Positions 7,208 through 10,200 of a DNA stretch of 64,000 nucleotides are shown one piece after another (within the stretch, counting starts at the first letter, position 1; each line of letters starts with the position of its first letter). This stretch comes from Methyloversatilis universalis EHg5 (GTDB lineage: Bacteria > Pseudomonadota > Gammaproteobacteria > Burkholderiales > Rhodocyclaceae): assembly GCF_000378945.1 (NCBI RefSeq), contig NZ_KB900539.1:2933234-2997233 (forward strand), given 5' to 3'. Both the position numbers and the translations under genes were made by a program. Under the pieces are notes generated by a model that made no database searches, was not told where the DNA came from, and saw only the letters and a list, made by a program, of their open reading frames with translations.

Positions 7208-8404
7208 TCACGCCAACCAGCGGCCGAGATCGCGCTTCATGTCTTCCACCGACTCCAGACCGATGGCCAGACGGATCAGGCTGTCGCGGATACCCGAGGC
7301 GTCGCGCGCTTCCTGAGAAATGCGGCCATGCGTGGTCGTCGCCGGGTGGGTGATGGTGGTCTTGGTGTCGCCAAGGTTGGCAGTGATCGACAGCATGCGG
7401 GTGGCGTCGATCAGCTTCCACGCCTCTTCGCGGCCGCCCTTCACCTCGAAAGCCACCACCGCGCCGCCGGTCTTCTGCTGGCGCATCGCGATTTCGTGCT
7501 GCGGATGCGACGGCAGGCCGGGGTAGAACACGCGCGCCACCCAGGGCTGCGCCTCCAGCCAGCGCGCCAGTTCCAGCGCGTTGGCCGACTGCGCCTGCAT
7601 GCGGATGGACAGCGTTTCCAGCCCCTTCAGGATGATCCAGGCGTTGAACGGCGACAGCGTCGGGCCGGCGGTGCGCAGGAAGCGCAGCACCTCGTCCATT
7701 TCCGCCTTGCGCCCGCACACCGCGCCGCCGAGCACGCGGCCCTGGCCGTCGAGGTACTTGGTGGCGGAATGAATGACGATGTCGGCCCCCAGCTCGATCG
7801 GCTTCTGCAGCGCCGGCGAGCAGAAGCAGTTGTCGACCGCCAGCAGCGCGCCGGCCGCGTGTGCGACCTCAGCCACCGCGGCGATGTCGATCACTTCGGT
7901 CAGCGGGTTGGACGGCGTTTCGATGAAGAAAAGTCTCGTGTTCGGCTGCACCGCGGCGCGGTAGGCCTCGATGTTGGTCGCCTCGACCAGCGTGGTGCTG
8001 ACGCCGAACTTCTCGAAATAGGTCGCGAACAGCTGCTGGGTCGAGCCGAAGATGCCGCGCGACGCGATGATGTGGTCGCCGCTCTTCAGCAGCGCCATCA
8101 GCGTCGACAGGATGGCCGACATGCCGGAACTGGTGGCGATGCAGGCCTCGGCACCTTCCAGTGCCGCCAGACGGTCCTGGAACATGGTGACCGTCGGGTT
8201 GGTGAAGCGGGCGTACACATTGCCCGGCGCGGCGCCCGAGAAGCGGGCGGCGGCTTCGGCCGCGGTGTTGAACACGAAGCTCGAGGTCAGGAACATCGCC
8301 TCGCCGTGTTCGCCGAACTGGCTGCGCTCTATGCCGGCGCGCACGGCGACGGTTTCGGGGTCGTACTGCGCGGGATCGAAGGGCGCGCGTTCAGTGCTGC
8401 TCAT
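7208..8404 (-). CDS. metZ: O-succinylhomoserine sulfhydrylase
   Basis: MetZ makes homocysteine directly from O-succinylhomoserine and sulfide, with pyridoxal phosphate. The 398-residue product shows the Cys/Met-metabolism enzyme pattern: FTNPTVTMFQDRLAALEG, the PLP-contacting ETPSNPLTEV, VDNCFCSPALQKP, and HSATKYLDGQGR with the Schiff-base lysine at the K of ATK. The C-terminal NLGDTKTTITHPATTTH is typical of MetZ rather than MetB or MetC. The ATG at 8404 has GGAG 7 bases upstream. The gene has its own promoter, SAM-II riboswitch and terminator between 8481 and 8657, so it should be turned off when S-adenosylmethionine is plentiful. Confidence 0.95.
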   Translation of the reverse strand: MSSTERAPFDPAQYDPETVAVRAGIERSQFGEHGEAMFLTSSFVFNTAAEAAARFSGAAPGNVYARFTNPTVTMFQDRLAALEGAEACIATSSGMSAILSTLMALLKSGDHIIASRGIFGSTQQLFATYFEKFGVSTTLVEATNIEAYRAAVQPNTRLFFIETPSNPLTEVIDIAAVAEVAHAAGALLAVDNCFCSPALQKPIELGADIVIHSATKYLDGQGRVLGGAVCGRKAEMDEVLRFLRTAGPTLSPFNAWIILKGLETLSIRMQAQSANALELARWLEAQPWVARVFYPGLPSHPQHEIAMRQQKTGGAVVAFEVKGGREEAWKLIDATRMLSITANLGDTKTTITHPATTTHGRISQEARDASGIRDSLIRLAIGLESVEDMKRDLGRWLA

Positions 8405-8480: not shown

Positions 8481-8519
8481 AAACAAAAAACCCGTTCCGC
8501 CTCGGAGGCAAAACGGGTT
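8481..8519 (-). terminator. intrinsic terminator in the metZ leader (riboswitch expression platform)
   Basis: Read on the minus strand, AACCCGTT (8519-8512) pairs with AACGGGTT (8496-8489). An inner GCCT/AGGC stem lies in the loop, and TTTTTTGTTT follows directly (8490-8481). It lies 77 bases before the metZ ATG and about 20 bases after the aptamer. Its 5' arm overlaps CGTTTTGCC (8515-8507), which can instead pair with GGCGAAACG (8541-8533) at the 3' end of the aptamer. That gives a 9-bp antiterminator with one G-U pair, so terminator and antiterminator exclude each other. Confidence 0.8.
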
Positions 8520-8532
8520 CCGCAGATACGTT

Positions 8533-8621
8533 CGTTTCGCCGCTTTAGCCGTATTTGTCCGGGACCGCTCTCTTTCGATGACGGCCCCGCGCGCCCGCAA
8601 GCTGGATTCAAATCGGCGCGT
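8533..8621 (-). ncRNA. SAM-II-type riboswitch with an inserted hairpin, upstream of metZ
   Basis: On the minus strand the conserved SAM-II blocks occur in order. The P1 arm CGCGCC (8620-8615) is followed at once by GATTTG, then GCTTGC, then the closing P1 arm GGCGCG, and later ACAAATACGGCTAAAGCGG with the diagnostic GCTAAA (8549-8544). Between the closing P1 arm and the 3' strand is an extra hairpin: CGGGGCCG pairs with CGGTCCCG, 8 bp with one G-U, around a 14-base loop. Compact SAM-II aptamers lack it. The family is known mainly from Alphaproteobacteria, in front of met genes, where it binds S-adenosylmethionine through a pseudoknot. The loop sequence CCAGC can pair with GCGG after GCTAAA as that pseudoknot. 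Confidence 0.8.
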
Positions 8622-8627
8622 AGCCGG

Positions 8628-8657
8628 ACATTAGCGCCCGGCCGCAGCAGACGTCAA
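8628..8657 (-). promoter_or_regulatory. sigma-70-type promoter of metZ
   Basis: On the minus strand TTGACG (8657-8652) lies 18 bases before TAATGT (8633-8628). Transcription would start close to 8621, which is the first base of the P1 helix of the riboswitch. The exact fit supports both calls. Confidence 0.75.
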
Positions 8658-8670
8658 GCGCCCGCAGCCA

Positions 8671-10200
8671 TCAGGCGTTCTCTTCCGACGCCACCAGATT
8701 CAGGTCGAGCTGGCCGCCGTCGTCGTCACTCTGCTTGGGCGCGCCCTTGCGCTGGTTTTCAACACCGTCGAGATAGGCGGCGGTCACGTCACCGGTGATG
8801 TAGCAGCCGTCGAAGCAGGACGTTTCGAACTGGTCGATCGACGGATTGCAGGCGGTGATCGAGGCCTTGAGCATGTCCAGCGTCTGGTAGATCAGCGCGT
8901 CGGCGCCGATGGCGGCGCGGATTTCGTCGTCGGTGCGGTTGGACGCGATCAGTTCGTCGCGGGTGGGCATGTCGATGCCGTACACGTTGGCGTAGCGCAC
9001 CGGGGGTGCGGCCGAGGCGAAATACACCTTGTTCGCGCCGGCTTCGCGCGCCATTGCGACGATTTCCTGGCTGGTGGTGCCGCGCACGATGGAATCATCG
9101 ACCAGCAGCACGTTCTTGCCCTTGAACTCCTGGGTGATCGCATTGAGCTTCTGGCGCACCGACTTACGACGCACCGCCTGCCCCGGCATGATGAAGGTGC
9201 GGCCGATGTAGCGGTTCTTCACGAAACCTTCGCGGTAGGGCACGTCCAGCACACGCGCCAGTTCCATCGCCGACGGGCGGCTGGAATCGGGAATCGGGAT
9301 CACCGCGTCGATCTGCAGGTCGGCGTGGTCGCGCTGTATCTTCTGCGCGAGGAATTCACCCATCTTGACCCGCGACTCGTAGACCGACACGCCGTCCATC
9401 AGCGAATCGGGGCGGGCCAGATACACGTATTCGAACAGACAGGGCGCGTAGTTCGGGCGCTCGGCGCACTGCTGCGACTTGATCGCGCCTTCCGGCGAAA
9501 TGAGCACCGCTTCGCCCGGCGCGATGTCGCGCAGCAGCTTGAAGCCCAGCGTATCGAGCGCGACGCTTTCCGACGCGACCAGCCACTCGGTGCCGTTGGC
9601 GGTTTCGTTGTTGCCGATCACCAGCGGACGGATGCCGAAGGGGTCGCGGAAGGCCAGCAGACCGAAGCCGGCAATCATGGCCACCACCGCGTAGGCACCG
9701 CGGCAGCGGCGATGCACGCCGGCCACCGCACGGAAGATGGTTTCGTGGTCGAAGGTCGGCCGCTCGCGCAGCGCCTGCATGATTTCGTGCGCCAGCACAT
9801 TGAGCAGCACTTCGGAATCGCTGGTGGTGTTGATGTGCCGCAGGTCGGTGCGGAACATGTCCAGCTTCAGCTCTTCAGAATTGGTCAGGTTGCCGTTGTG
9901 CGCCAGCATGATGCCGAACGGCGAATTGACATAGAAGGGCTGCGCCTCGGCCGCGTTGTAGGCGGAACCGGCGGTCGGGTAGCGCACATGGGCGATGCCC
10001 CAGTTACCCTGCAGATTGCGCATGTTGCGCGTGCGGAAGGCGTCGCGCACCAGGCCCGAGCCCTTGTGCATCAGGAACTTCTGCCCCTGCGCGGTGGCGA
10101 TGCCCGCCGCGTCCTGGCCGCGGTGCTGGAGCACCAGCAAGCCATCGTACAGAAGCTGGTTGACGGGAGAGGTGGCAACGACGCCGAGTATTCCGCACAT
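8671..10200 (-). CDS. purF: amidophosphoribosyltransferase (purine synthesis, first step)
   Basis: PurF transfers ammonia from glutamine to PRPP to give phosphoribosylamine. The N-terminus MCGILGVV exposes the catalytic Cys after removal of Met, and the glutaminase domain continues with [10 protein letters not shown] and AHNGNL. The C-terminal phosphoribosyltransferase half has the PRPP loop [14 protein letters not shown] near residues 363-376. The 509-residue length fits the Gram-negative type without an N-terminal propeptide. The start is 5 bases after the cvpA stop, the same cvpA-purF pairing as in E. coli, so both are on one transcript. The 3' end overlaps the upstream edge of the metZ promoter region. 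Confidence 0.97.

Follow-up and report, generated by a model that had tools for sequence, protein, structure and literature searches.

The question raised by this locus is how metZ is controlled from the leader that separates it from its upstream neighbour purF. Within the window, i.e. the whole stretch of 64,000 nucleotides that was analysed, the minus strand between positions 8485 and 8657 carries a promoter-like site, a SAM-II-type pseudoknot aptamer, a hairpin in loop L3, a 9-bp antiterminator and an intrinsic terminator (Table 1; P1 and P2 are the stems, L1 and L3 the loops of SAM-II RNAs), and every block of this order, as claimed in an earlier sequence-only reading, was found at its position. 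The metZ ATG at 8404, preceded by GGAG at 8414-8411, lies 135 bases past the aptamer, and the closest named metZ relatives are those of a M. discipulorum MAG (97% identity) and of M. thermotolerans (93%), which places the host in Methyloversatilis or in its immediate vicinity. Anatomy, conservation and gene context together make it very likely that the metZ leader is a SAM-II riboswitch which attenuates transcription of metZ.

Table 1. Positions of the metZ leader elements and flanking genes in the window, and of the related RNA before metK in the same genome
Feature	Position	Strand	Basis or remark
-35-like hexamer TTGACG	8652..8657	-	5/6 consensus bases
-10-like hexamer TAATGT	8628..8633	-	3/6 consensus bases only
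P1 helix, 5' strand CGCGCC	8615..8620	-	paired in 12/12 sequences
SAM-II loop L1 block GATTTG	8609..8614	-	Rfam match and insert-free covariance model
Pseudoknot P2, 5' strand CCAGCTTGC	8597..8605	-	congener and order-wide alignments
P1 helix, 3' strand GGCGCG	8590..8595	-	12-leader alignment
L3-inserted hairpin, flush with P1	8560..8589	-	covariation, fold, absence in some metX orthologues
L3 conserved 3' part ACAAATACG	8550..8558	-	consensus common to short-L3 and long-L3 copies
Pseudoknot P2, 3' strand GCTAAAGCGG	8540..8549	-	alignments and insert-free covariance model
Antiterminator, 5' strand GGCGAAACG	8533..8541	-	invariant 12/12; G8541 and G8540 common to P2
Antiterminator, 3' strand CGTTTTGCC, also terminator 5' arm	8507..8515	-	
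Intrinsic terminator stem-loop	8488..8520	-	T-run 8490-8485 (six T); -22.1 kcal/mol
metZ (O-succinylhomoserine sulfhydrylase)	7208..8404	-	NF006003 706.7 bits, cut-off 522
purF, upstream neighbour, ends ahead of the leader promoter	8671..10200	-	TIGR01134 517 bits, cut-off 350
Own-genome altered-core RNA	L274:979-1034 (G000:C1:3826378-3826433)	+	GAGTTAA...ACAACTTGC...GCTAAAGCG, 66 bases before metK

The promoter-like site consists of two hexamers (TTGACG-N18-TAATGT), scored in Table 1 against the -35 and -10 consensus. Of the promoter claimed for this site, the hexamers themselves stand, and TTGAC and TAnnGT recur, by eye, in eight named Methyloversatilis-type metZ leaders (L011-L018); the claim is weakened by a promoter scan of the metZ leader, which returned no sigma-70-like site at its threshold, and by the 3/6 match of TAATGT. 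Transcription would start at P1 or just upstream of it, and the original SAM-II report likewise describes promoters a few bases ahead of P1, along with terminators (PMC1273637).

As in that description of SAM-II, the metZ leader combines P1, the blocks GAUUUG, GCUUGC and GCUAAA (all present), an H-type pseudoknot, a terminator and a methionine gene, metZ, directly downstream; P1 closes loop L1 with 6 bp, paired in all 12 distinct Methyloversatilis metZ leaders, and eight P2 pairs are possible. What sets the leader apart is a hairpin of 30 bases at the start of L3 and a score below the Rfam cut-off. With RF00521, the metZ copy stayed under threshold, matching with its P1 half only, at 18.6 bits (E 0.2) against a gathering score of 36, which is an operational cut-off and no biological definition; the match is split by the L3 insert. 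This partial match came from a 1.3-kb search, smaller than the search of insert-bearing loci in which none of 13 matched RF00521 at E≤1. The metH copy of the same genome, with the same core and no insert, passes with 43.3 bits. We then relied on a covariance model, R1, trained on 34 non-redundant insert-free leaders including this metH leader (L002). R1 finds the two halves of the metZ leader in the 64-kb window with E 1.1e-8 and 2.5e-5, the next best match having E 0.098 (values that are rough by the tool's own statement), and in the whole genome, where 150 of 3883 first-look candidates were scored, only the leaders of metH (74.7 bits, as a training member), metK (39.1), metZ (37.3) and metX (36.8) reach E <1e-6, followed by a match at 0.36. 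NCBIfam confirms the four genes and purF, the MetH fragment being partial (838 bits, cut-off 1497). R1 likewise matches all of the 45 loci searched among those of 55 insert-bearing leaders, the weakest at E 0.005. The proposed SAM-II-type aptamer is thus supported by its core blocks and by R1. The long-loop SAM-II family RF01726, which by its published name is a SAM-II form with enlarged loops and was described from Bacteroidetes and marine samples (PMC2864571), had also been proposed as a search model; it gave no match at E≤10 anywhere in the genome, and this identity was rejected. Rfam matches to RybB, Pseudomon-groES and anti-hemB were far under their cut-offs and resemble terminator likeness or chance.

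An element in the same setting has been in print since 2014: Leyn et al. described 'metXZ' as new, located it before metX or metZ in betaproteobacteria, and treated it as separate from SAM_alpha with its ligand unknown (PMC4239095). Clade, genes, a following terminator, a proposed antiterminator and a pseudoknot between four of six conserved regions all agree with the metZ leader, while metXZ was reported once per genome and three SAM-II copies plus a metK-linked relative are found here. Leaders of the metZ type are probably this element, a likeness drawn from gene context, clade and the fold as described, and the surprise value first attached to the metZ leader is lowered by that publication. 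The separation from SAM_alpha would also suit a look-alike pseudoknot sensing homocysteine, methionine or SAH in place of SAM. We consider such a ligand improbable, given that the core blocks of the metZ leader are those of the RF00521 alignment, that the RF00521 threshold is exceeded by insert-free copies from this and related genomes (14 of 61 genomes), and that Bordetella bronchiseptica is among the organisms in the original SAM-II figure (PMC1273637). We infer that SAM is the ligand of the metZ leader.

Relatives were collected with an exact pattern, which fixes the conserved blocks in advance and leads to an undercount of elements in which these blocks are altered. After dropping eight of 184 parsed leaders as chance matches, double parses or for an altered tail (L092, L132, L134, L136, L141, L142, the second parse of L084 and, with the altered tail, L188), 176 were retained, 150 of which precede metZ (86), metX (47) or metH (17), the other 26 downstream genes matching none of the three references. 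Among 80 metZ loci, 61 have a SAM-II leader behind purF, with a gap of at least 118 bases (over 1.4 kb in three), and 15 have no such leader and a purF gap of 14-85 bases; one further locus with the leader and three without it show no purF in the stretch examined. Pairing could be assessed in 116 non-redundant relatives. The outer P1 pair 6 forms in 78 of them, against 44% (maximum 56%) after shuffling, and the variable P2 pair x16-81 in 94, against 58% (maximum 66%), while P2 pair 19-79 fails in 22; across the order, compensatory variation is seen at P1 pairs 5 and 6. Pairs 1-4 of P1 are no test, since leaders were chosen for at least four P1 pairs, and the same holds for the inner P2 pairs, which the search pattern fixes. 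As a side observation, SAM-II cores in which L3 is as short as 6-7 bases (L143-L145, L221 and L223) lie ahead of ABC transporter genes, which we take to be metN-like; one ABC transporter fragment downstream of a canonical SAM-II was confirmed as ABC_tran.

The inserted hairpin, in which CGGGGCCG pairs with CGGUCCCG (8 bp and one U-G), had been proposed as an 8-bp helix and proves to be real. Across the 12 distinct Methyloversatilis metZ leaders, 89% of the cells of the insert are paired and double-sided changes occur at seven of 11 pairs. Counted over the complete structure, such changes amount to 25 cells, all within the hairpin; shuffled alignments give 11.1, none of 500 reaching 25, and slid controls give 4-12. 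Counted as pairs alone, the contrast is smaller (7 against 5.2, with 45 of 500 shuffles as high). The covariation called for by the sequence-only reading was hence found in the hairpin and not in P1, the pseudoknot or the antiterminator, where no compensation is visible within the genus because the columns are (nearly) invariant; for P1 and P2, support comes from other families instead. The L3 of the metZ leader as a whole folds with z -4.8.

In the wider collection the length of L3 is bimodal, with 6-17 bases in 121 and 23-55 bases in 55 of the 176 leaders, and the consensus of its end, A-N-AAAU-N-C, is identical in both groups. The predicted hairpin begins at most one base from P1 in 46 of the 55 long copies, 43 of which fold with z < -1 (mean -2.2 for the long copies), while some fold no better than shuffles, e.g. 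L140 (+1.2) and L183 (+0.3). Long copies span 11 families of the order, 12 of the 55 being metZ leaders of a single genus. Among 398 genomes sampled from the phylum the long pattern occurs in 51; its matches outside the order, judged by eye among those listed, are without the P1 strand GGGCG and resemble chance matches. Within the genus, the insert is present at metZ in 13 of 13 genomes, and at metX it is present in five and absent in eight of the same number, with near-identical flanks. The L3 hairpin is thus modular, being present or absent at one site in metX orthologues. A 14-row metX tree, with a single distant outgroup, requires one state change for the five carriers, with weak support (56/98; 55% of bootstrap trees). 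The hairpin replaces roughly the first two bases of the usual 11-base L3, and it is kept as a helix and is dispensable for the class.

A covarying helix that is kept in the genus, and long L3 inserts that recur in 11 families, could also mean that the hairpin is itself regulatory, by way of a protein, a second ligand or a time window for folding. This we regard as rather unlikely, considering that sequence, loop and length (L3 of 23-55 nt) differ between families and that metX orthologues exist with and without the insert (both assumed functional). The hairpin would rather be a passive module, perhaps stacking on P1. These data indicate that so small a pseudoknot as SAM-II can accommodate a whole helix in L3, next to the binding site, and has gained one there more than once. 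The curated SAM-II model makes no room for such a helix; metX in sister species offers a natural pair, with and without the helix, for measuring its effect. The open-licence PMC literature yielded no published report of an L3 insert in SAM-II. In most of the leaders L029-L090, which mostly precede metZ in Methylophilales, it is L1 rather than L3 that is enlarged, with 14-37 bases between GATTTG and GCTTGC (5-9 in L031, L042, L043, L049, L057 and L066), and the two loops therefore vary independently between lineages.

How would such an aptamer act on metZ? The sequence-only reading held that SAM-II usually acts on translation, and this is not supported by the literature: in alpha- and betaproteobacteria, no other aptamer is associated with terminators as often as SAM-II (PMC2258182; see also PMC1273637). 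Neither termination control nor a SAM-II member from a betaproteobacterium is new to print (PMC2258182, PMC1273637). With the start codon 135 bases off and a strong terminator intervening, the idea that the aptamer governs metZ solely at translation was rejected, though it may act there in addition. In Sinorhizobium meliloti, an alphaproteobacterium, a SAM-II likewise lies ahead of metZ and termination upon SAM binding is predicted; a ~100-nt sRNA was detected by a riboswitch probe and, according to the authors, the read-through mRNA is stabilised as well, the passages on this leader making no mention of an insert (PMC9373788).

A terminator follows within 170 nt, by our rule, in 157 of the 176 leaders and is lacking in 19; with these 19 and 18 near-duplicates left out, 139 leaders remained for energy calculations. 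Downstream of GCTAAA, the most favourable pairing with the 5' arm of the terminator averages -12.7 kcal/mol, compared with -11.5 kcal/mol (sd 0.15) for swapped terminators and -11.8 for the best of 100 permutations. For the nine-base P2 strand alone, pairing with the 5' arm yields -7.4 kcal/mol, whereas shuffled arms give -3.4 and the 3' arm -4.4. In 83 of 139 leaders the antiterminator starts with base 1 of GCUAAAGCG; its start falls within the first three bases of that strand in 89 and within all nine in 129. This overlap is partly forced, as the terminator starts a median of 10 bases after the P2 strand, and it is therefore the energy controls which carry the argument. The claimed switch between antiterminator and terminator is borne out by complementarity above both the swapped and the shuffled controls. 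In what seems to be the general design, GCUAAAGCG has two alternative partners, one in the pseudoknot and the other, resembling CGUUUUAGC, in an antiterminator.

In the window the register is shifted. The antiterminator formed by GGCGAAACG and CGTTTTGCC (9 bp, one G-U) has a predicted stability of -12.5 kcal/mol, or -6.2 kcal/mol without the two G needed by P2, and these two, G8541 and G8540, are the only bases it shares with the pseudoknot, so that a 7-bp remnant could persist. The proposed competition between pseudoknot and antiterminator stands in that shared bases exist, but the overlap is confined to two G; in the 83 relatives mentioned above, the antiterminator begins with the P2 strand itself. 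Neither antiterminator strand varies among the 12 congeners, while the only substitutions in the 3' arm of the terminator along the shared stretch are between A and G opposite U, as is expected if the shared 5' arm serves two helices.

The terminator is predicted to be more stable than the antiterminator (-22.1 versus -12.5 kcal/mol), and complementarity that does not vary in the genus could be inherited by chance. Both facts would be compatible with a constitutive terminator, or with a leader that yields a short RNA of its own, the antiterminator then being incidental. The excess of complementarity over the swapped and shuffled controls in 139 leaders, and the finding that the frozen strand is the one common to both helices, make this a poor prospect in our judgement. 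With attenuation by a SAM-II riboswitch as the preferred reading, GGCGAAACG would pair with CGTTTTGCC at low SAM, no terminator would form and metZ would be transcribed. With SAM bound, the pseudoknot of CCAGCTTGC and GCTAAAGCGG would capture two G of the antiterminator and roughly halve its predicted stability, whereupon the terminator could form and transcription would halt upstream of metZ. The OFF logic of the sequence-only reading is consistent with these results, the direction of the switch being the part that is deduced.

When folded without constraints, the metZ leader shows neither P1 nor the pseudoknot; instead, GCGCCGATTTG pairs with CAAATACGGC. Within 8620-8541, the P1 5' strand and GATTTG are complementary to the conserved end of L3, CAAATACGGC. 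It is possible that this pairing is an alternative, ligand-free helix. Leyn et al. proposed a second conformation (PMC4239095), to which the pairing between GCGCCGATTTG and CAAATACGGC may correspond. In the metX leader of the same genome (L107:1576-1625), the start codon immediately follows the T-run of the terminator (TTTTTTCATG) and no Shine-Dalgarno sequence is evident, both by eye.

The same stretch of DNA also matches, on the plus strand, the Rfam family RF02424 (Bp2_287), an sRNA whose source paper places it upstream of methionine genes and obtained cDNA with oligo(dT) (PMC3521395). The match is full length (8485-8654) with 23.8 bits and E 0.006 in a 1.3-kb search, which would accord with an sRNA antisense to the metZ leader. 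We hold this to be the most remote of the alternatives: the score is far from the cut-off of 70, the promoter-like site, the U-tract terminator and the gene order all fit the minus strand, and the published RT-PCR, being oligo(dT)-primed, did not fix the strand. When 20 sources were searched, RF02424 scored 204, 157 and 108 bits on three loci of one family (f31) and less on four others, and in 7 of 7 matched loci its strand is opposite to that of the SAM-II reading; examples are L148:1460-1632 (-), L150:1411-1587 (+) and L117:1465-1667 (-). Strand and score led us to reject the antisense reading. RF02424 covers the same leaders in the f31 genomes, modelled on the opposite strand and as an sRNA rather than a riboswitch; it would thus be the reverse complement of the SAM-II leader RNA, entered in Rfam on the wrong strand, and SAM-II leader, 'metXZ' and RF02424 would be a single RNA. 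Two loose entries are in this way linked to a known riboswitch class. What is new is the modular L3 helix and, likely, the unification of names, the principle being already known.

A search of 200 genomes of the order detected a related RNA with the core GA[G/T]UUAA ... CAACUUGC ... GCUAAAGCG in 42 of them, and the reversed control pattern in none. This RNA lies 58-124 bases ahead of metK in 30 of 45 distinct copies, including that of the present genome (Table 1), and most other copies precede a small M[Y/F]DC protein, two of which were tested and gave no Pfam hit. Its P1 covaries: pair 5 is CG in 17, TA in 14, GC in 12 and AT in one of the 45 copies, with one unpaired. Rfam 15 gave no match on these copies at E≤1 (15 loci) or at E≤5 (13 loci, nine with a pattern copy); R1 reaches some of them (L274, L282 and L264). 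In the own metK leader no T-run is seen, by eye, between the RNA and metK, and the RNA therefore probably acts on translation. Control of metY, metK and metNIQ in betaproteobacteria was left unexplained by Leyn et al. (PMC4239095).

It is thus tempting to read betaproteobacterial methionine and SAM supply as governed by one branch of a SAM-II superfamily in three forms, a joint proposal for which we see the case as evenly balanced. A canonical form would serve metH, metX, metZ and metN-like genes; in a second form, a modular L3 helix adjoining the ligand pocket would have been repeatedly gained or lost; and a third, with the altered core GAGUUAA / ACAACUUGC before metK, would be translational and may have another SAM affinity or ligand. 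If true, 'metXZ' and the wrongly stranded RF02424 would be united with SAM-II, and the question of what controls metK and metNIQ, as posed by PMC4239095, would be answered.

Canonical and altered-core RNAs also occur together, 12 of the 45 altered-core copies being located downstream of a canonical SAM-II. In the tandems L209, L211, L214-L218, L220 and L222 (e.g. L217:496-760), a canonical SAM-II with its terminator is followed by the altered-core element and then by a small MYDC/MFDC protein, in several cases with a MATE-like transporter thereafter; 44 examples of tandem SAM-II riboswitches are on record in PMC9481103. Finally, in L232 (genome G141), the gene behind a canonical SAM-II core and its terminator is metK-like, as judged from its sequence.
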